Source of the DNA: Shimia ponticola
GTDB taxonomy: Bacteria > Pseudomonadota > Alphaproteobacteria > Rhodobacterales > Rhodobacteraceae
Assembly (NCBI RefSeq): GCF_007995215.1
Contig: NZ_VCDK01000005.1
Span: 372,001-436,000, forward strand
Direction of reading: 5' to 3'
DNA length: 64,000 bases
A program made the translations under genes and the position numbers. Each line of letters begins with the position of its first letter. Position 1 is the stretch's first letter. Below the pieces are notes generated by a model. It did no database searches. It was not told the origin of the DNA and worked only from the letters and a program-made list of their open reading frames with translations. This document shows, in pieces, positions 4,657 to 55,784 of this stretch.

Positions 4657-5483
4657 CCCAGAACCGAAAGCCGCGTGTCGTGATCAACTTCGGGTCGCTG
4701 GCCAAACCAGCGCTCAAATCCAGGTACGGCCTGATGCAAGAGCATGCCGAGCCCATCGACCACATCACATCCAGCCTGACGCGCTTCGCGCAGAAGGCGC
4801 GTTTCAAGTGGCGCATAGACCAGATCCGTGACCACATTGCCTGGCTCCAGCCCGTCCAGAGGAACGCGCAGTTCCGGTTGCCCGATCATGCCCAAGGAGG
4901 TGGTGTTGATGATTGTCTGAGAGTCTTCGATTACGTTGCCAGCTTCGACCCAATCGACAACCGTAACCCGAGGACCGAAAGATTGCTGCAAAACCTCGGC
5001 GCGACCGCGCGTCCGGTTGCACAGATAGATGGTCGAAACACCGGTTTCGATCAACGTAGCAAGCACCGCGCGCGCCGCACCACCAGCACCGAGGACCACG
5101 GCCGGTCCAGCATCCGGGACCCATTTGGGCGCCCCTTGTCTCAGATTGGCAAGAAATCCGTAACCATCCGTATTGTCGGCCCGAATCTGCCCATCATTGG
5201 TAAAAATCAGCGTATTGGCCGCGCCGATCAGAATGGCACGATCCGTTGCCTTGTCCGCAACCTCAAGCACCTTTTCCTTGTGAGGGATCGTGACGTTTGC
5301 ACCTACAAATCCCATTTTTGGCAAGGTTCGCACGACGGATTCAAAATCCTGCTCAGCCACCTTCAGCGGAATGTAATGACCACTGATCTGATAGCGGTCC
5401 AACCAGTGGCGGAACAGCTTGGGTGATTTGCTGTGCGAAATCGGATCACCGATCACACCTGCGATGGGAAGCGAACTACTCAT
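4653..5483 (-). CDS. aroE: Shikimate dehydrogenase (NADP+)
   Basis: The 276-residue enzyme reduces 3-dehydroshikimate to shikimate with NADPH in aromatic amino acid synthesis. The N-terminal substrate domain shows PISHSKSP (about residues 13-20) and the catalytic Lys in TIPHKE. The Rossmann domain shows GAGGAARAVL and the conserved NTTSLGM. It is coupled to maf upstream and coaE downstream by 4-base overlaps. Confidence 0.95.
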   Translation of the reverse strand: MSSSLPIAGVIGDPISHSKSPKLFRHWLDRYQISGHYIPLKVAEQDFESVVRTLPKMGFVGANVTIPHKEKVLEVADKATDRAILIGAANTLIFTNDGQIRADNTDGYGFLANLRQGAPKWVPDAGPAVVLGAGGAARAVLATLIETGVSTIYLCNRTRGRAEVLQQSFGPRVTVVDWVEAGNVIEDSQTIINTTSLGMIGQPELRVPLDGLEPGNVVTDLVYAPLETRLLREARQAGCDVVDGLGMLLHQAVPGFERWFGQRPEVDHDTRLSVLG

Positions 5484-6076
5484 GTCGCGACAGTGTCATG
5501 CAGCGCCAAAAACGCCAAGAGGGGCAAAAGCGGCAAGCCCATGATTGTCGGCATATCGCCTTGGATACTGGAGAACAGGCGGATGCCTTCTGCTTCGGCG
5601 CGGTAGCCGCCGACACAGTATTGAATGTCAGACCAGTAGGTCTCGACGTAGTCATCGATGAACTGTGCCGACAGTGTCCGCATCGACATCCGCGCCGTCC
5701 CAACATGTCGCCACATGGGTTCATGGTCTTTGTAAATGACCGCCGCCGAGAGCAAGCTGTGCGTCTGACCCTGTAGCATCGCCAATTGTTCTTTGAGCGC
5801 GTTCGGGTTGGCCGCTTTGGAAAGGCACTTGCCTTGGAAAGCCAGAACCTGATCAGAGCCAAGCACCATCTGATCGGGATGTTTGTTGGCCACGCGTTGG
5901 GCCTTTAGTTCTGCCAAAGTATCGGCGATGTCGCGCGGGGTCGCACCCTCGGCTTCTAGAGACATCTTAACCATGTCTTCATCTATCCGTGCCGGCATGG
6001 CTTTGAACGGAACGCCCGCTTGCGTGAGCAATTGCTTACGCGCGGCAGACTGAGAGGCCAGGATGATGAGGGTCAT
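5480..6076 (-). CDS. Maf family nucleotide pyrophosphatase
   Basis: The 198-residue protein has the Maf N-terminal signature LASQSAARKQLL and the catalytic-aspartate region GSDQVL. Maf proteins hydrolyse nucleoside triphosphates, often non-canonical or modified pyrimidines, and some affect septum formation. It is the first gene of the leftward operon and borders the putative origin directly; a DnaA-box-like 9-mer lies 3 bases upstream of its start codon. Which Maf subfamily it belongs to cannot be fixed by eye. Confidence 0.92.
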   Translation of the reverse strand: MTLIILASQSAARKQLLTQAGVPFKAMPARIDEDMVKMSLEAEGATPRDIADTLAELKAQRVANKHPDQMVLGSDQVLAFQGKCLSKAANPNALKEQLAMLQGQTHSLLSAAVIYKDHEPMWRHVGTARMSMRTLSAQFIDDYVETYWSDIQYCVGGYRAEAEGIRLFSSIQGDMPTIMGLPLLPLLAFLALHDTVAT

Positions 6077-6078
6077 GC

Positions 6079-6087
6079 TGTGAATAA
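6079..6087 (-). promoter_or_regulatory. DnaA box, exact match to TTATNCACA
   Basis: The minus strand reads TTATTCACA, matching the consensus at every fixed position. It sits 3 bases upstream of the maf start codon, so DnaA bound here could also affect maf expression. Confidence 0.6.
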
Positions 6088-6271
6088 CTGCGTGTATCGG
6101 AAACGGTGTAAAGGGTGACTGTTTTCCGGATCAAACCACGTGGCCGATCAGCCGGCGGAAAAACCCATCTTTCGTCCCGATCTGATACAGGGTTTTGCAA
6201 GTGTGGACAGGGGTAACTTTGAGACAAGGATAATCCTCAACCACGGAAGTTACCATGATCCCATACAAGTC

Positions 6272-6280
6272 TTGTCCACA
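6272..6280 (+). promoter_or_regulatory. DnaA box-like 9-mer
   Basis: The plus strand reads TTGTCCACA, one mismatch (third base) from TTATCCACA. It lies in the middle of the putative origin. Confidence 0.55.
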
Positions 6281-6367
6281 TGCAATTAGATCATAAGTGT
6301 CTGAATACAAATGCTAAAATATGAGAACGCTGTATACCTAGGTATCTTTACAAACAGGCAAGGTTTC

Positions 6368-6376
6368 TGCGGATAA
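6368..6376 (-). promoter_or_regulatory. DnaA box-like 9-mer
   Basis: The minus strand reads TTATCCGCA, one mismatch from TTATCCACA, 18 bases from the next box-like site and close to the AT-rich tract. Confidence 0.5.
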
Positions 6377-6393
6377 CTCGGTCGACAAACCCA

Positions 6394-6402
6394 TAATCCA
6401 CA
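6394..6402 (+). promoter_or_regulatory. DnaA box-like 9-mer
   Basis: The plus strand reads TAATCCACA, one mismatch (second base) from TTATCCACA. It lies 12 bases before the AT-rich tract, where a box next to an unwinding element would be expected. Confidence 0.5.
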
Positions 6403-6414
6403 GGCTGACAGCCC

Positions 6415-6457
6415 CCTAAATCATCTAAATCCTTTCTTTCTATATTTATTATTTTAT
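6415..6457. other. AT-rich tract, possible DNA unwinding element
   Basis: This stretch is made almost entirely of A and T (for example TATATTTATTATTTTATG near its end), in sharp contrast to the GC-rich genes around it. It is next to the box-like sites at 6368-6402 and ends about 35 bases before hemJ. It may double as the hemJ promoter region. Confidence 0.5.
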
Positions 6458-6491
6458 GAGTGTGTTCAGACGACAGGGACGGACACATAGA

Positions 6492-6947
6492 ATGATCGCA
6501 GAACTGCTCAGCTGGGCTTACCCATGGATCAAGGTCGGACACCTTGTATCGCTGATCTCTTGGATGGCCGGGATGTTCTATCTGCCGCGTTTGTTTGTCT
6601 ATCACGCTGAACGGGCCGCGGTTGGGAGCGAGCTGGACGAAACCTTCCAGATCATGGAACGCAAGCTGTACAAGCTGATCATGAATCCGGCGATGATTTC
6701 CACGTGGGTCTTTGGCCTCTTGCTTATGGCGACACCAGGGGTCGTCGATTGGGCGTCAGCGTGGTTCTACATTAAGCTGGTGGCCGTTTTGGGCATGTCA
6801 GCGGCCCATGGCTGGATGGCGGGACGCATCCGCGCATTTGCAGACGGGACAAATGATAAGCCGGGACGCCATTATCGCATCATGAATGAGGTGCCGACCA
6901 TCCTGATGTTGATCATCGTCGTCATGGTGGTTGTCAGACCTTTCTGA
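6492..6947 (+). CDS. hemJ: Protoporphyrinogen IX oxidase HemJ
   Basis: ATG 6492 gives 151 residues with four hydrophobic segments and the HemJ N-terminal pattern WIKVGHLVSLISWMAGMFYLPRLFVYH, whose conserved histidines fit haem ligation; the C-terminal RIMNEVPTILM also fits. HemJ oxidises protoporphyrinogen IX to protoporphyrin IX in the inner membrane, the step before ferrochelatase (hemH at 43.4 kb here). An in-frame ATG at 6456 would add 12 polar residues from the AT-rich tract and is less likely. It is the first gene right of the putative origin. Confidence 0.92.
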   Translation: MIAELLSWAYPWIKVGHLVSLISWMAGMFYLPRLFVYHAERAAVGSELDETFQIMERKLYKLIMNPAMISTWVFGLLLMATPGVVDWASAWFYIKLVAVLGMSAAHGWMAGRIRAFADGTNDKPGRHYRIMNEVPTILMLIIVVMVVVRPF

Positions 6948-6965
6948 GCGGATTGCCCGGCAAAG

Positions 6966-6994
6966 TTGACTCCGAGAGCCAAAACCCCTAGCTG
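6966..6994 (+). promoter_or_regulatory. Possible sigma70-type promoter for rho
   Basis: TTGACT at 6966-6971 is followed after 17 bases by TAGCTG at 6989-6994. The -35 is good and the -10 weak. It lies in the 117-base gap between hemJ and rho, which leaves a leader of about 65 bases. Confidence 0.3.
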
Positions 6995-7064
6995 TCTCCG
7001 CGCAGCCCGTCCGGGCATCGCAGTTTCATCCTGAAAACCGACATTACGATAGGCGGGTCCCCGC

Positions 7065-8348
7065 ATGAGCGAAGAAACCTCTACGGAGCGTTTGAATCTG
7101 GCTGATTTGAAGGCGCAGAGCCCTAAGGCGCTGTTGGCCATGGCCGAAGAGCTTGAGATCGAAAACGCATCGACCATGCGCAAGGGCGACATGATGTTCG
7201 CCATCTTGAAAGAGCGCGCCGAGGACGGCTGGGAAATCTCGGGTGATGGCGTTCTTGAGGTGCTACAGGACGGGTTTGGGTTCCTGCGGTCGCCAGAGGC
7301 AAACTATCTTCCGGGTCCGGATGACATCTATGTCTCGCCAGACATGATCCGTCAGTTTTCACTGCGCACCGGCGATACCGTCGAAGGTGTGATCAAGGCG
7401 CCGGGCGAAAATGAACGTTACTTCGCCATGACCAGCGTCACGAAGATCAACTTCGAAGAGCCTGAGAAAGCGCGGCACAAGATTGCCTTCGACAACCTGA
7501 CACCGCTCTATCCGGATGAACGCCTGCACATGGAGGTCGCTGATCCAACGATCAAGGATCGGTCAGCGCGGATCATCGACCTTGTGTCGCCAATCGGTAA
7601 GGGCCAGCGCTCGTTGATCGTTGCTCCGCCACGGACCGGTAAGACCGTCCTGCTGCAGAACATCGCAACAAGCATCGAAAAAAACCATCCGGAGTGTTAT
7701 CTGATCGTCCTTCTGATCGACGAACGCCCGGAAGAAGTCACGGACATGCAGCGGTCCGTGAAAGGTGAGGTCATCAGCTCGACGTTTGATGAGCCAGCGA
7801 CACGTCACGTGGCTGTCTCTGAGATGGTTATTGAAAAGGCCAAACGTCTTGTTGAGCACAAGCGGGACGTCGTTATTCTGCTCGACTCGATCACGCGTCT
7901 GGGCCGTGCGTTCAACACTGTTGTTCCATCATCAGGGAAGGTTCTGACCGGTGGTGTCGACGCAAACGCCTTGCAACGCCCCAAGCGGTTCTTTGGTGCA
8001 GCGCGGAATATCGAAGAGGGTGGATCGCTGACGATCATTGCCACAGCTTTGATCGATACGGGTTCGCGCATGGACGAAGTCATCTTCGAAGAATTCAAGG
8101 GCACCGGTAACTCGGAAATCGTTCTGGATCGCAAGGTCGCGGATAAACGCGTGTTCCCAGCTATGGACATTCTCAAATCCGGTACACGGAAAGAGGACCT
8201 TCTGGTCGACAAGGTTGATCTGCAGAAGACCTATGTCCTTCGGCGTATCCTGAACCCGATGGGGACCACGGACGCAATTGAGTTCCTGATCTCGAAGCTT
8301 AAGCAGACCAAGACCAATTCGGATTTCTTTGATTCGATGAACACCTGA
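7065..8348 (+). CDS. rho: Transcription termination factor Rho
   Basis: The 427-residue protein has the whole Rho layout: an N-terminal helical Rho_N segment, the cold-shock-like RNA-binding domain with GFGFLR and DIYVSP (about residues 72-95), and the RecA-like ATPase with Walker A PPRTGKT (R190-T194) and the [12 protein letters not shown] motif. The R-loop and the C-terminal RILNPMGT are intact. Rho is the hexameric RNA helicase that ends transcription of untranslated RNA. mnmE starts 13 bases downstream. Confidence 0.98.
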
Positions 8349-9647: not shown

Positions 9648-11522
9648 GTGTTTCACGTGAAACATGACTTTGATGTCATCGTCGTGGGTGGCGGACATGC
9701 GGGTTGCGATGCGGCAGCTGCCGCGCATCGTATGGGTGCGCGGGTGGCTTTGGTCACGTTGCAGCAAGATGCGATCGGCGTCATGTCTTGCAATCCCGCC
9801 ATCGGAGGCCTCGGGAAAGGGCATCTCGTTCGTGAGATAGACGCCTTGGATGGCCTGATGGGTCGTGTTGCTGACGCCGCAGGTATTCAATTTCGATTAC
9901 TGAACCGTCGTAAGGGACCAGCCGTCCAAGGTCCGCGCGCACAGGCCGATCGTGGGATCTACAGGGTGCGCATGCAGTCAGAAATCGCTGCGATGGCCGG
10001 ATTAGCTGTGATTGAGAGTGAGGTCGTTGACCTGGTTCAAGTGAACGGTTCCGTGGCCGGCGTGACTTTGGGCGACGGATCACAGTTGAGCGCTCAGGCC
10101 GTGGTTTTGACCACCGGCACGTTTTTGCGGGGTAAAATCCACATTGGTGATGTCAGTTATGGCGGCGGTCGAATGGGAGAGAAATCGGCGGATCGCTTGT
10201 CAGACCGTTTTTCTGACTTCGGTGTTAAATTGGGTCGTCTGAAGACAGGGACACCGCCTCGGTTGGATGGCCGGACCATAAACTGGGATGGGCTTGAGAT
10301 GCAGCCCGGTGATGATCAAGCAACGATGTTTTCATTTCTGAATACATCGCCTGAAGCGCGCCAGGTGTCTTGCGGGATCACTCACACGAATCCCCGCACG
10401 CATGAGATCATTGAGAAAAATCTGGATCGCTCTGCAATGTATGGGGGCCATATCGATGGCGTTGGTCCCCGCTATTGCCCGTCAATCGAGGATAAAGTCG
10501 TGCGCTTTGCCGATAAGGCCTCGCACCAAATATTCCTAGAACCGGAAGGGTTAGATGATCCCACCATCTACCCGAACGGTATTTCGACGTCTTTGCCCGA
10601 GGATGTGCAGGAGGATTACGTTCGCTCGATTGCTGGACTAGAGGATGTCACAATTCTTCAGCCGGGATACGCTATCGAGTATGACTACGTGGATCCCAGA
10701 AATCTCAAGCCAACCCTGGAACTTCGGCAGGCACCTGGCCTGTATCTGGCGGGTCAGATTAATGGGACGACGGGCTACGAAGAGGCCGCCGCGCAGGGTT
10801 TGGTTGCAGGTTTGAACGCAGCAGCGGCGGTCCAAGGGCGTGAAGCAATAACGTTTGGGCGGCAATCGTCTTATATCGGAGTGATGATCGACGATTTGGT
10901 GACAAGAGGTGTCACAGAGCCCTACCGAATGTTTACCTCGCGCGCAGAGTTTCGTCTTTCCCTGCGCGTGGACAACGCAGACCAACGCCTCACACCGTTT
11001 GGTCGGGATATTGGTTGCGTGGGTGAGAAGCGATGGGCGACGTTTTCCAGCAAGCTGGATCAACTCACAGAGGTCAAGGATCGTCTGACTTCAATGTCGG
11101 TGACGCCGAAACAGGCAAAATCGGCGGGGATCGCTGTGAAGGAGGATGGTCAGAAGCGCAATGGCATGGAGCTCTTGGCGTTCCCATCTGTGGGGTTTGC
11201 AGATGTCGCAAGCCTCAGCGAAAGCTTAGCCAGTACACCGAACCACATTGCAGAGCAGCTTGAGAAAGAAGCTTTGTATTTCAGCTATGAGCAGCGGCAG
11301 GCGGCTGAAGTGTCAGCGATGGCAAAGGATGAAGATCGGATTATCCCGGACGACTTCGACTACACGATGTTGAATGGTTTGTCGTCTGAGGTTCGTGGAA
11401 AGCTGGATCGCGTTCGTCCATCAAGCCTCGGTCAGGCAAAGCGGATCGATGGCATGACCCCTGCGGCTTTGACATTGATCCTTGCCCATCTGAAACGGGA
11501 GGAGAGGTCGCGTGCGTCTTGA
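9648..11522 (+). CDS. mnmG: tRNA U34 modification enzyme MnmG (GidA)
   Basis: The 624-residue FAD enzyme starts at GTG 9648. The FAD motif VVGGGHAG is near residues 12-20, the GidA signature [15 protein letters not shown] around residue 87, and the C-terminal helical domain ends with [14 protein letters not shown]. It works with MnmE on tRNA wobble uridines. Its first residues, MFHVKH, are the translation of an exact parS palindrome that begins on the second base of the start codon. The 3' end overlaps rsmG by 11 bases. Confidence 0.97.
9649..9664. promoter_or_regulatory. parS: parS centromere site (exact 16-bp palindrome)
   Basis: The sequence TGTTTCACGTGAAACA is a perfect palindrome identical to the widespread chromosomal parS consensus. 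It overlaps the GTG start of mnmG and lies about 3.3 kb from the putative origin and 3.3 kb before parB. ParB is expected to load here as a CTP-dependent clamp. Confidence 0.93.
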
Positions 11523-12111
11523 AGATGTTTCACGTGAAACAAAGGCCGATCTGGAGGCTTACGTCGCGCTCCTTCTGAAGTGGAACAACACGATCAATCT
11601 CGTGGCCAAGTCCACAGAGGATGAAATCTGGACGCGACATATTGAGGATTCCCTTCAGATTTGGCCAATTCTGCCAGATGCGGAATTGCTTGTTGATATG
11701 GGGAGCGGTGGCGGTCTGCCTGGGATTGTGCTCGCCATCTGCGCGAAGCATGATCCTCGCATCAAAGCAGTCACGCTGATTGAGGCGGACATACGAAAAT
11801 CTACTTTTCTGCAAACCGTTATCCGCGATCTGGGATTGCCAGCGAAGGTGCTGTCGCGCCGTATTTCAGAATGTCCGCCGCTCAACGCGCAGCTTGTGAC
11901 GGCGCGGGCGCTGTCGGACCTTGCGTCCCTGTTGGGATTCTGTGATCGACATCTTGCACCTGGCGGTACGGCAGTTTTCCCAAAAGGCGCGCGCGCGGAC
12001 GAAGAGATCGAAACGGCTGAAAATGACTGGCGCTTTGCCGTCGAAAAGGTTCCTAGTGCAACGGATCCGAATGCTGTGATTCTGAAGATTGGAGATATTG
12101 CCCGTGTCTGA
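11512..12111 (+). CDS. rsmG: 16S rRNA (guanine527-N7)-methyltransferase RsmG (GidB)
   Basis: The 199-residue protein starts at GTG 11512 inside the end of mnmG, with GGGAGGAGAGG upstream as a strong ribosome site. The SAM-binding motif is [11 protein letters not shown] (about residues 62-72), followed by an acidic residue in LIEAD. RsmG methylates N7 of G527 in 16S rRNA, and its loss gives low-level streptomycin resistance. Codons 5-10 (DVSRET) contain a second exact parS palindrome. The stop overlaps the parA start. Confidence 0.96.
11526..11541. promoter_or_regulatory. parS: parS centromere site (exact 16-bp palindrome)
   Basis: A second exact TGTTTCACGTGAAACA lies within codons 5-10 of rsmG, 1.9 kb from the first. 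Here the palindrome is read in a different codon phase and encodes the core of DVSRET. Confidence 0.93.
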
Positions 12112-12907
12112 CCCTCTTATGCAGGCCCGCGCGCGCATCATTGCCGTTTCCAACCAAAAAGGTGGCGTGGGCAAGACAACGACCACGATAAATCTGGCGG
12201 CGGCTTTGGTGGCCGAAGGACGTCGGGTTTTGATTGTTGATCTCGATCCACAGGGCAATGCCTCTACCGGCTTGGGTTTGATGCCAGAGGATCGCGAACT
12301 CACCGCCTATGACGTCCTCCTAGAGGACGCGCCAATCCAAGAGGCTATTTATGCCACCGAGATTGACGGCCTGTACCTTGTGCCTTCGACGGTTGATCTT
12401 AGCTCGGCAGATATCGAGTTGATGTCGAATGAAAAGCGGTCTTACCTTTTGCACGACGCGCTCAGGTCGTCAGAGGCCGCGGGTCAATTTGATTTTGTTT
12501 TGATCGACTGTCCTCCGTCGCTGAACCTCCTCACGGTCAACGCAATGGTGTCTGCGGACTCGGTTCTTGTCCCACTGCAAAGCGAATTCTTTGCACTTGA
12601 AGGGTTGTCTCAACTTATGCTGACAATCCGCGAAATTCGCACCACGGCGAACGAACGGCTTCGCATCGAGGGCGTTGTTTTAACCATGTTTGACCGCCGC
12701 AATAACCTGTCTCAGCAGGTCGAACAGGACGCCAGAGATAATCTGGGCGATCTGGTCTTTGACACCATCATCCCGCGCAATGTCCGTGTGAGCGAGGCAC
12801 CGTCCTTTGCGATGCCGGTTTTGCAATATGACCCCACATCTACGGGCGCACGGGCCTATCGTGATCTGGCGGTCGAACTTCTCGCAAAAACAAACGTCCC
12901 AGCATAA
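12104..12907 (+). CDS. parA: Chromosome partitioning ATPase ParA
   Basis: GTG 12104 gives 267 residues, with GGAG 9 bases upstream and an 8-base overlap with rsmG. The deviant Walker A KGGVGKT is at residues 19-25, followed by the VDLDPQGNAST and IDCPPSL motifs. ParA binds DNA non-specifically as an ATP dimer and moves ParB-parS complexes apart. An in-frame TTG at 12089 would add five residues but is a poorer start. parB follows 12 bases later. Confidence 0.96.
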   Translation: MSDPLMQARARIIAVSNQKGGVGKTTTTINLAAALVAEGRRVLIVDLDPQGNASTGLGLMPEDRELTAYDVLLEDAPIQEAIYATEIDGLYLVPSTVDLSSADIELMSNEKRSYLLHDALRSSEAAGQFDFVLIDCPPSLNLLTVNAMVSADSVLVPLQSEFFALEGLSQLMLTIREIRTTANERLRIEGVVLTMFDRRNNLSQQVEQDARDNLGDLVFDTIIPRNVRVSEAPSFAMPVLQYDPTSTGARAYRDLAVELLAKTNVPA

Positions 12908-12919
12908 GGAGGGCTCACC

Positions 12920-13798
12920 ATGGCCAAAGATAAGAAACGAGGTCTGGGGCGCGGTTTGTCGGCCTTGATGGCGGATGTAGAGCAAGATACCGCCGCAACG
13001 CCGCAAACGCCGCAGCGGCCCGATACGCATCTGCCCATAGAGCGAGTGTTTCCAAATCCGGATCAGCCGCGGCGCAGCTTTGACCAATCTGATCTCGACG
13101 ATCTTGCGGCTTCGATCCGGCAAAAGGGGATAATTCAGCCGCTGATCGTGCGGGCACGTCCAGGATCGGCCGATGAGTATGAAATCGTTGCCGGTGAACG
13201 GCGCTGGCGCGCTGCTCAACTGGCGCAGTTGCACGAAGTTCCCGTGGTCATTCGCGATTTCACGGACACAGAAGTCCTTGAGGTCGCCATCATTGAAAAC
13301 ATCCAACGCGCTGATCTGAACCCGGTGGAAGAGGCGCTGGGCTTTCAGCAGCTTTTGGACCGTTTTGGTCACACACAAGAGCAATTGGGTGAGGTTCTGG
13401 GCAAGAGCCGGAGTTATATCGCCAATATTCTGCGACTTTTGACGTTGCCGCTGGACGTACAGGAACTGCTCAAAGCCGGAAAACTCTCGGCGGGACACGC
13501 GCGGGCCTTGATCACGTCTGACAACGCCTCTGATTTGGCAGCGCAGGTTGTTGCCAAGGGTCTGTCGGTGCGTGAGACCGAGAAACTGGCCAAGGGCACC
13601 CCGCCGCCTGCGCCGAAACCCAAGGCCCCAAAGCTTGAAAAAGACGCTGATACACGTGCGTTAGAGAATGATTTGTCGGCGGCGCTCGGCATGAAGGTCG
13701 CCATCGACCACAAGGCTGGCGGTGAAGCTGGTGCCGTCACCATCAAGTACACGTCTTTGGATCAGTTGGACGATCTTTGCGCCCGGCTGGCACGCTGA
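12920..13798 (+). CDS. parB: Chromosome partitioning protein ParB
   Basis: The 292-residue protein starts with the typical RGLGRGLSALM. It then has the N-terminal CTP-binding domain (PNPDQPRR and GERRWRAAQLA), a helix-turn-helix around KSRSYIANILRLL that reads parS, a proline/lysine-rich linker and a C-terminal dimerisation domain. It binds the parS sites at 9649 and 11526 and slides as a clamp. AGGAGGG lies before its ATG. Its stop abuts the convergent hemW stop with no gap. Confidence 0.96.
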   Translation: MAKDKKRGLGRGLSALMADVEQDTAATPQTPQRPDTHLPIERVFPNPDQPRRSFDQSDLDDLAASIRQKGIIQPLIVRARPGSADEYEIVAGERRWRAAQLAQLHEVPVVIRDFTDTEVLEVAIIENIQRADLNPVEEALGFQQLLDRFGHTQEQLGEVLGKSRSYIANILRLLTLPLDVQELLKAGKLSAGHARALITSDNASDLAAQVVAKGLSVRETEKLAKGTPPPAPKPKAPKLEKDADTRALENDLSAALGMKVAIDHKAGGEAGAVTIKYTSLDQLDDLCARLAR

Positions 13799-33056: not shown

Positions 33057-33651
33057 CGCGGTCACAGTCGATGACATTCGTCGCGCTTTGGAACGCGCGG
33101 CGGAGCCATCGTCAGATTTTGACCTGAACCCGGCGGTGCAATTGCCGACGGGGCGCAAGCTTCGCGATGCGGCGGTTCTGATGCTGGTGTCCGAGGGCGA
33201 GTCAGGGCCAGACGTCGTGCTGACGAAACGATCCGCGCATCTCAAGCATCATCCCGGACAAATCTCGTTCCCCGGCGGGAAGAAAGACCCGGAGGATGCT
33301 GACCTCTGGGCCACTGCGTTGCGTGAGGCGCGCGAGGAAATTGGCCTGAATTCCGCCGATGTAGAGCCTTTGGGCATGTTGCCGCCGCATGAGACGGTCA
33401 CGTCCTTTACCGTCACTCCGAAGATCGCGGTCTTGAACCGTCCGCAGGATTGGGTGCCAGAGGTCGGCGAGGTCGAAGAGGTTTTCACCGTGCCATTGAG
33501 GCATGTGCTGCGGCCTGAGAACTTTATTGTCGAAGGTCGAATTTGGCAGGGCAGCGTGCGCCGCTATTACGCCGTACCTTACGGCCCTTATTACATCTGG
33601 GGCGCGACGGCGCGTATTTTGCGCGGGTTGGCCGAACGGGTGGCGGCGTGA
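33049..33651 (+). CDS. Nudix CoA pyrophosphatase
   Basis: GTG 33049 gives 200 residues, with GGAAGG 5 bases upstream and overlap with the hslO stop. The LTKRSAHLKHHPGQISFPGG motif is the CoA-specific UPF0035 signature, followed directly by the Nudix box ending REAREEIGL. The enzyme splits CoA to 3',5'-ADP and phosphopantetheine. The next gene, CCA nucleotidyltransferase, overlaps it by 4 bases. Confidence 0.9.
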   Translation: MTDAVTVDDIRRALERAAEPSSDFDLNPAVQLPTGRKLRDAAVLMLVSEGESGPDVVLTKRSAHLKHHPGQISFPGGKKDPEDADLWATALREAREEIGLNSADVEPLGMLPPHETVTSFTVTPKIAVLNRPQDWVPEVGEVEEVFTVPLRHVLRPENFIVEGRIWQGSVRRYYAVPYGPYYIWGATARILRGLAERVAA

Positions 33652-55319: not shown

Positions 55320-55343
55320 GCCAACCCCTCAATTACCTAACGA

Positions 55344-55372
55344 AGCGCCCCGCAGATGTGTGGGGCGCTTTT
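55344..55372 (+). terminator. Rho-independent terminator after the importer operon
   Basis: AGCGCCCC (55344-55351) pairs with GGGGCGCT (55362-55369), with a further CA/TG pair inside the loop, followed by a short T-run. The stretch from 55373 to 55480 has no further recognised feature. Confidence 0.85.
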
Positions 55373-55480
55373 GTGTTGGGCGGTGAGTAACGACTTGGAC
55401 GGTGGGTCGATCCGGGGCGAGACACACGCCATGCCCGTTCCATGGCTATGCACATGGGGATGGATGTTTGATCTTATCCG

Positions 55481-55717
55481 TTAGCTTCCAGAGCCGCTGT
55501 CGTCGTGATCATCCGTCGTTGCGCTGCTCGACCCGCGTGGTGTTGGCTGCCCTGTTCCACGGGCTTGCGGCGGCTCTTCGCCCGGGATCGGCCATCGCCC
55601 TTCGCGCGACCGGTAAAAGATCATCTCCATGATCGGTTTGATTTGCCATACGGTCGCGCAGGCTAACGCGATCAGTAGCCAGCCAACGACGCTTAGGGAC
55701 GACAGAAATTCCAGCAT
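55481..55717 (-). CDS. Small single-pass membrane protein, hypothetical
   Basis: ATG 55717 gives 78 residues: a hydrophobic helix at about residues 7-24 (VVGWLLIALACATVW), then a positively charged IKPIMEMIFYRSREG stretch and a low-complexity tail rich in Pro, Ser, Asp and Gly. The composition is protein-like, but the ribosome site is weak and no family is recognised, so it may be non-coding. Confidence 0.4.
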   Translation of the reverse strand: MLEFLSSLSVVGWLLIALACATVWQIKPIMEMIFYRSREGRWPIPGEEPPQARGTGQPTPRGSSSATTDDHDDSGSGS

Positions 55718-55784
55718 CCACGAACGCTAGATGAATTCCCCAGCGCAGGAAAGGGCGGCATATGTGCCGCCGTTCCTGGCATCG

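Follow-up and report, generated by a model that had tools for sequence, protein, structure and literature searches.

Alphaproteobacterial origins of the hemE/COG1806 (DUF299) class, to which Caulobacter crescentus Cori belongs, consist of a box cluster in an intergenic region of more than 300 bp flanked by hemE and COG1806: a few DnaA boxes, an IHF-like site and an AT-rich tract within ~400 bp (PMC1914354). Alphaproteobacterial origins without CtrA sites have been reported in the same study; CtrA sites are not universal. For Rhodobacteraceae, oriCs near parAB have been predicted with Ori-Finder; the part of that study considered here names no flanking genes (PMC6699656). The basal unwinding system pairs a DnaA box with a DnaA-trio made up of 3'-GAT-5' repeats, for which a rule has been formulated: three or more 3'-NAN-5' triplets no farther than 16 bp from a box and directed into the unwinding tract (PMC8287927). 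Our search of the literature, which was limited in coverage, found no experimentally mapped Rhodobacterales origin.

We analysed a 64-kb stretch of DNA from a marine-type bacterium of the Rhodobacterales (the window), together with the full 673,122-bp contig on which it lies (C8) and samples of the larger other contigs amounting to 1.02 Mb. An earlier note on this DNA had proposed the intergenic region between maf and hemJ as the chromosomal oriC. That reading gains support from box clustering, duplex instability, the skew minimum of C8, the sole parS pair and conservation in relatives, and on this sequence evidence we put its probability at about 95%.

Sites in the maf-hemJ gap

In the 415-bp gap between maf and hemJ (6077-6491), four DnaA boxes differ from TTATCCACA at no more than one position. 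At least four box-like 9-mers, one of them exact, had been noted before; none of the gap boxes matches TTATCCACA perfectly, and it is the box at 6079 on the minus strand that is exact, to TTATNCACA. This first box, TTATTCACA (6079-6087, minus strand), abuts the maf start. The others are TTGTCCACA (6272-6280, plus strand) and an inverted pair formed by TTATCCGCA (6368-6376, minus strand) and TAATCCACA (6394-6402, plus strand), whose right half is directed at the predicted unwinding tract. Two weaker boxes with two mismatches, CTGTCCACA at 6202 (minus strand) and TAATCCTCA at 6231 (plus strand), lie in a middle box-like block (6195-6240). Boxes this close to the same 9-mer (one mismatch or none) number 10 in the window and 68 in C8, and a scan of the full contig found no more than two in any other 415-bp stretch, which leaves the gap as its sole cluster; the probability of four or more in 415 bp is about 1.2 × 10^-7 (Poisson). 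Box-like 9-mers are not enriched across the window as a whole (16 seen, 24 expected from dinucleotide shuffles), so what matters is their clustering and not their number.

By nearest-neighbour energies, the gap also holds the 40-bp segment with the lowest duplex stability in the entire contig (6417-6456); we predict this segment to be the DNA unwinding element. The AT-rich tract that the earlier note had described is found here as well, with no 50-bp segment of the window richer in AT than 6416-6465. The GC-skew check proposed in that note, carried out on the whole of C8 with samples of other contigs, places the cumulative minimum of C8 at 5364, no more than 1.1 kb from the gap, after which the skew rises. 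Local skew is noisy, and the minimum falls within the gene block to the left of the gap, and the 2000 lowest cumulative positions span 4771-7089. Two general marks of an oriC, a GC-skew switch and a predicted unwinding element (beginning at 6417), are found at this locus.

An IHF-like site, ATTCAGACACTTA (6294-6306, minus strand), has one mismatch to WATCARNNNNTTR. There are no CtrA sites (TTAA-N7-TTAA) in the gap at up to one mismatch, GANTC sites show no excess, and searches of the window for tRNAs and Rfam families found nothing. A PLSDB search with 6000-6560 returned no match and so revealed no similarity to known plasmid origins.

Neighbouring genes and history of the locus

The genes on either side diverge, as had been claimed: maf (5480-6076, minus strand) begins at 6076, and hemJ (6492-6947, plus strand) at 6456 or, more likely, 6492. 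The first encodes a Maf-like nucleotide pyrophosphatase whose profile score, 116, is just under the subfamily cut-off of 117.15 bits; the second encodes the protoporphyrinogen oxidase HemJ (TIGR00701, above cut-off). The statement that this is the only gene-free stretch of more than 300 bases holds roughly and fails strictly, as a crude gene call leaves 55320-55784 and the left edge of the window free of genes too; 33057-33542 is an overlooked Nudix-like ORF and not a gap. Within 55320-55784, a possible second gap of more than 300 bp, there is a candidate 78-aa membrane-protein ORF (55481-55717, minus strand).

A HemJ search returned 80 loci, nearly all from Rhodobacterales. In 49 of these maf and hemJ diverge across 328-423 bp, as in the window; the aligned set used below comprises 50 loci. 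Other relatives show the Pfam-checked gene orders maf-ppsR-(boxes)-hemE-hemJ, maf-(boxes)-hemE-hemJ and maf-ppsR-(gap)-hemJ, with the same box cluster adjoining ppsR (DUF299/COG1806) and/or hemE. Relatives that keep hemE/COG1806 share the chromosomal place of the window, with maf and aroE on one side and hemJ, rho and mnmE on the other. Because one or both genes are kept there, the position of the locus is orthologous to that of the hemE/COG1806 origin. Two relatives that keep ppsR and have no hemE are short of boxes before hemJ, with none in L050 (4763-6001) and two in L064 (4792-6001).

The gap resembles the Cori class in its few DnaA boxes and AT-rich tract within ~400 bp and perhaps in its IHF-like site, and its box cluster occupies an intergenic region of more than 300 bp. 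It differs in that its flanks are maf and hemJ rather than hemE and COG1806, the ppsR family (PF03618) being absent from the genome and hemE lying on a different contig (C9), and in that no CtrA sites were found; such sites are present in 4 of the 50 aligned gaps (1.2 expected). Apart from the CtrA sites and the hemE/COG1806 flanks, and with its IHF site as a candidate, the locus has the features set out in the two published descriptions, as far as the part of the second considered here goes (PMC1914354; PMC6699656). Since relatives keep ppsR and hemE beside the same cluster, we infer from gene order that the gap is the ancestral, Caulobacter-type ppsR-oriC-hemE origin of alphaproteobacteria with both flanking genes removed, ppsR through loss and hemE through relocation.

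DnaA also acts as a transcription factor, and the boxes could instead mark a promoter region through which DnaA regulates maf and hemJ, with the true origin elsewhere, for example at dnaA. The divergence of the two genes and the placement of the first box against the maf start would suit such a role. However, dnaA lies ~51 kb away, while it is at the gap that C8 has its box cluster, its lowest cumulative skew, its weakest duplex and the parS sites, and the cluster endures in relatives beside other genes (ppsR, hemE), all of which makes a promoter region in place of an origin very improbable.

Two parS sites, both exact palindromes TGTTTCACGTGAAACA, are the only ones in the genome at up to one mismatch and lie 3-5 kb from the gap, at 9649-9664 and 11526-11541. 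Both sit within coding sequence: the first within the mnmG start, where GTGTTTCACGTGAAACA is translated as MFHVKH, and the second within rsmG near its start, where it encodes DVSRETK. With parA, a ParA-type ATPase gene, at 12089-12907 (plus strand) and parB (TIGR00180, above cut-off) at 12920-13798 (plus strand), parAB is 5.6-7.3 kb from the gap, in agreement with the earlier placement of parAB and two parS sites within 7.5 kb. In having a box cluster at the GC-disparity minimum near a single parAB, the locus is like the Ori-Finder oriCs of Rhodobacteraceae, and nothing essential differs from them in the part of that study considered here (PMC6699656).

The gap might also be a real chromosomal origin but one of several, the same genome carrying a chromid or a second origin. 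The assembly comprises 12 contigs, and on C5 the skew passes from -0.011 to positive near the contig start; against this, the genome's only two parS sites are both here, and the 1.02 Mb sampled elsewhere contains at most two boxes per 415 bp, and on these grounds we hold additional origins to be highly unlikely. In the samples from the other large contigs, skew mostly keeps to a single sign (largely negative on C6, largely positive on C9, C5 and C1), which fits one origin on C8. From the first 40 kb to 90 kb of C6 the sampled skew goes from positive to negative, possibly reflecting a terminus-side switch or an assembly join.

Conservation in relatives and a DnaA-trio-like element

In relatives, boxes occur at 3.64 per kb in the gap and 0.25 per kb in the flanks, 14 times background. 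Alignment with the window shows several kept blocks. The box at the maf start is kept as TGTGGATAA in most of the 50 loci, the mid-gap block has the family consensus TTTCCAC.GTGGA.AAGGATAAG, and the inverted pair is conserved, its left half as GGATAA.TCTG within GGATAA.TCTG..GATAA. A AATCCACAG box is also kept; the position of the box at 6272 is not. The block TAA-N4-TTGATA is the IHF consensus in reverse, and the exact IHF consensus is found in 16 of the 50 gaps (1.6 expected from mononucleotide shuffles), mostly at a similar distance from hemJ. Among 64 loci, GC skew increases across the gap in 61 and turns from negative to positive in 53. A 15-base probe, CATCATCTTTTCTTT, matches in 12 of 198 family genomes, and 11 of the 12 matches are at a locus flanked by maf and hemJ. 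That AT-rich 9-mers came together by chance in an unremarkable intergenic region, as the imperfection of the boxes might suggest, is effectively refuted by this conservation across 50 loci, besides having a probability of ~10^-7.

The last kept block is CTA(CAT)n-CTTTTCTTT, with an AT-rich stretch behind it. Most maf-hemJ origins (loci L037-L109) carry this block after the last DnaA box and before hemJ, and in relatives that keep hemE its place after the last box is taken by TATCTACTATCAACCACCACTTCTCTTAAATATT. At least two tandem CA[TAC] units occur in 43 of the 50 loci, and CATCATC in 34 of the 50 gaps (2.0 expected from mononucleotide shuffles). The window carries a degenerate version, CTAAATCATCTAAATCC (6416-6432, minus strand, on which it is read as single-stranded DNA), and the CAT repeat is longer in relatives.

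Like the basal unwinding system, most relatives have a box separated by a short spacer from a trinucleotide repeat, which lies on the predicted strand, but the repeat is CTA(CAT)n, or 3'-GAT(GTA)n-5', and not a series of 3'-GAT-5' units (PMC8287927). The DnaA-trio rule is satisfied somewhere in 46 of the 50 gaps, as opposed to 13.5 in shuffles. A trio role is nevertheless a hypothesis, because several of these matches are not the CAT element and because the rule fails from the right-hand box of the window (6394), where the element reads as given above. A trio match from the minus-strand box at 6368 was dropped because it is directed away from the AT tract and because such matches occur in ~27% of shuffles. 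The conserved element is a possible divergent DnaA-trio. We tentatively suggest, as an idea that may well prove wrong, that maf-hemJ origins of Rhodobacterales use it as a divergent single-stranded DnaA-binding repeat in place of the 3'-GAT-5' DnaA-trio, relatives that keep hemE having a CTACTA version in the same place. A conserved CTA(CAT)n at the DnaA-trio position, unlike the usual 3'-GAT-5' repeat, is mildly new.

Proposed mechanism and significance

Initiation at this origin can be pictured from the arrangement of its sites. DnaA would bind the boxes of the gap, and an IHF-type protein would probably bend its middle. From the inverted pair at 6368 and 6394, DnaA may be guided into the neighbouring minus-strand element of CTA(CAT)n-like sequence, and growth of the DnaA filament could then open the tract at 6417-6456, which is rich in pyrimidines and AT and adjoins hemJ. 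The helicase would be loaded at the opened tract and forks would depart both ways as the origin fires, while ParB at the two nearby parS sites would segregate the new origins.

The gap is almost certainly an origin of the standard kind for its class, in a somewhat reduced setting, and it is therefore well supported but ordinary. Its identification would narrow the origin of this organism down to ~400 bp. The conserved CTA(CAT)n element is a specific candidate variant of the DnaA-trio and is testable in vitro. In many Rhodobacterales the standard alphaproteobacterial origin locus is seen stripped of ppsR and hemE, and it appears otherwise as expected for the group.
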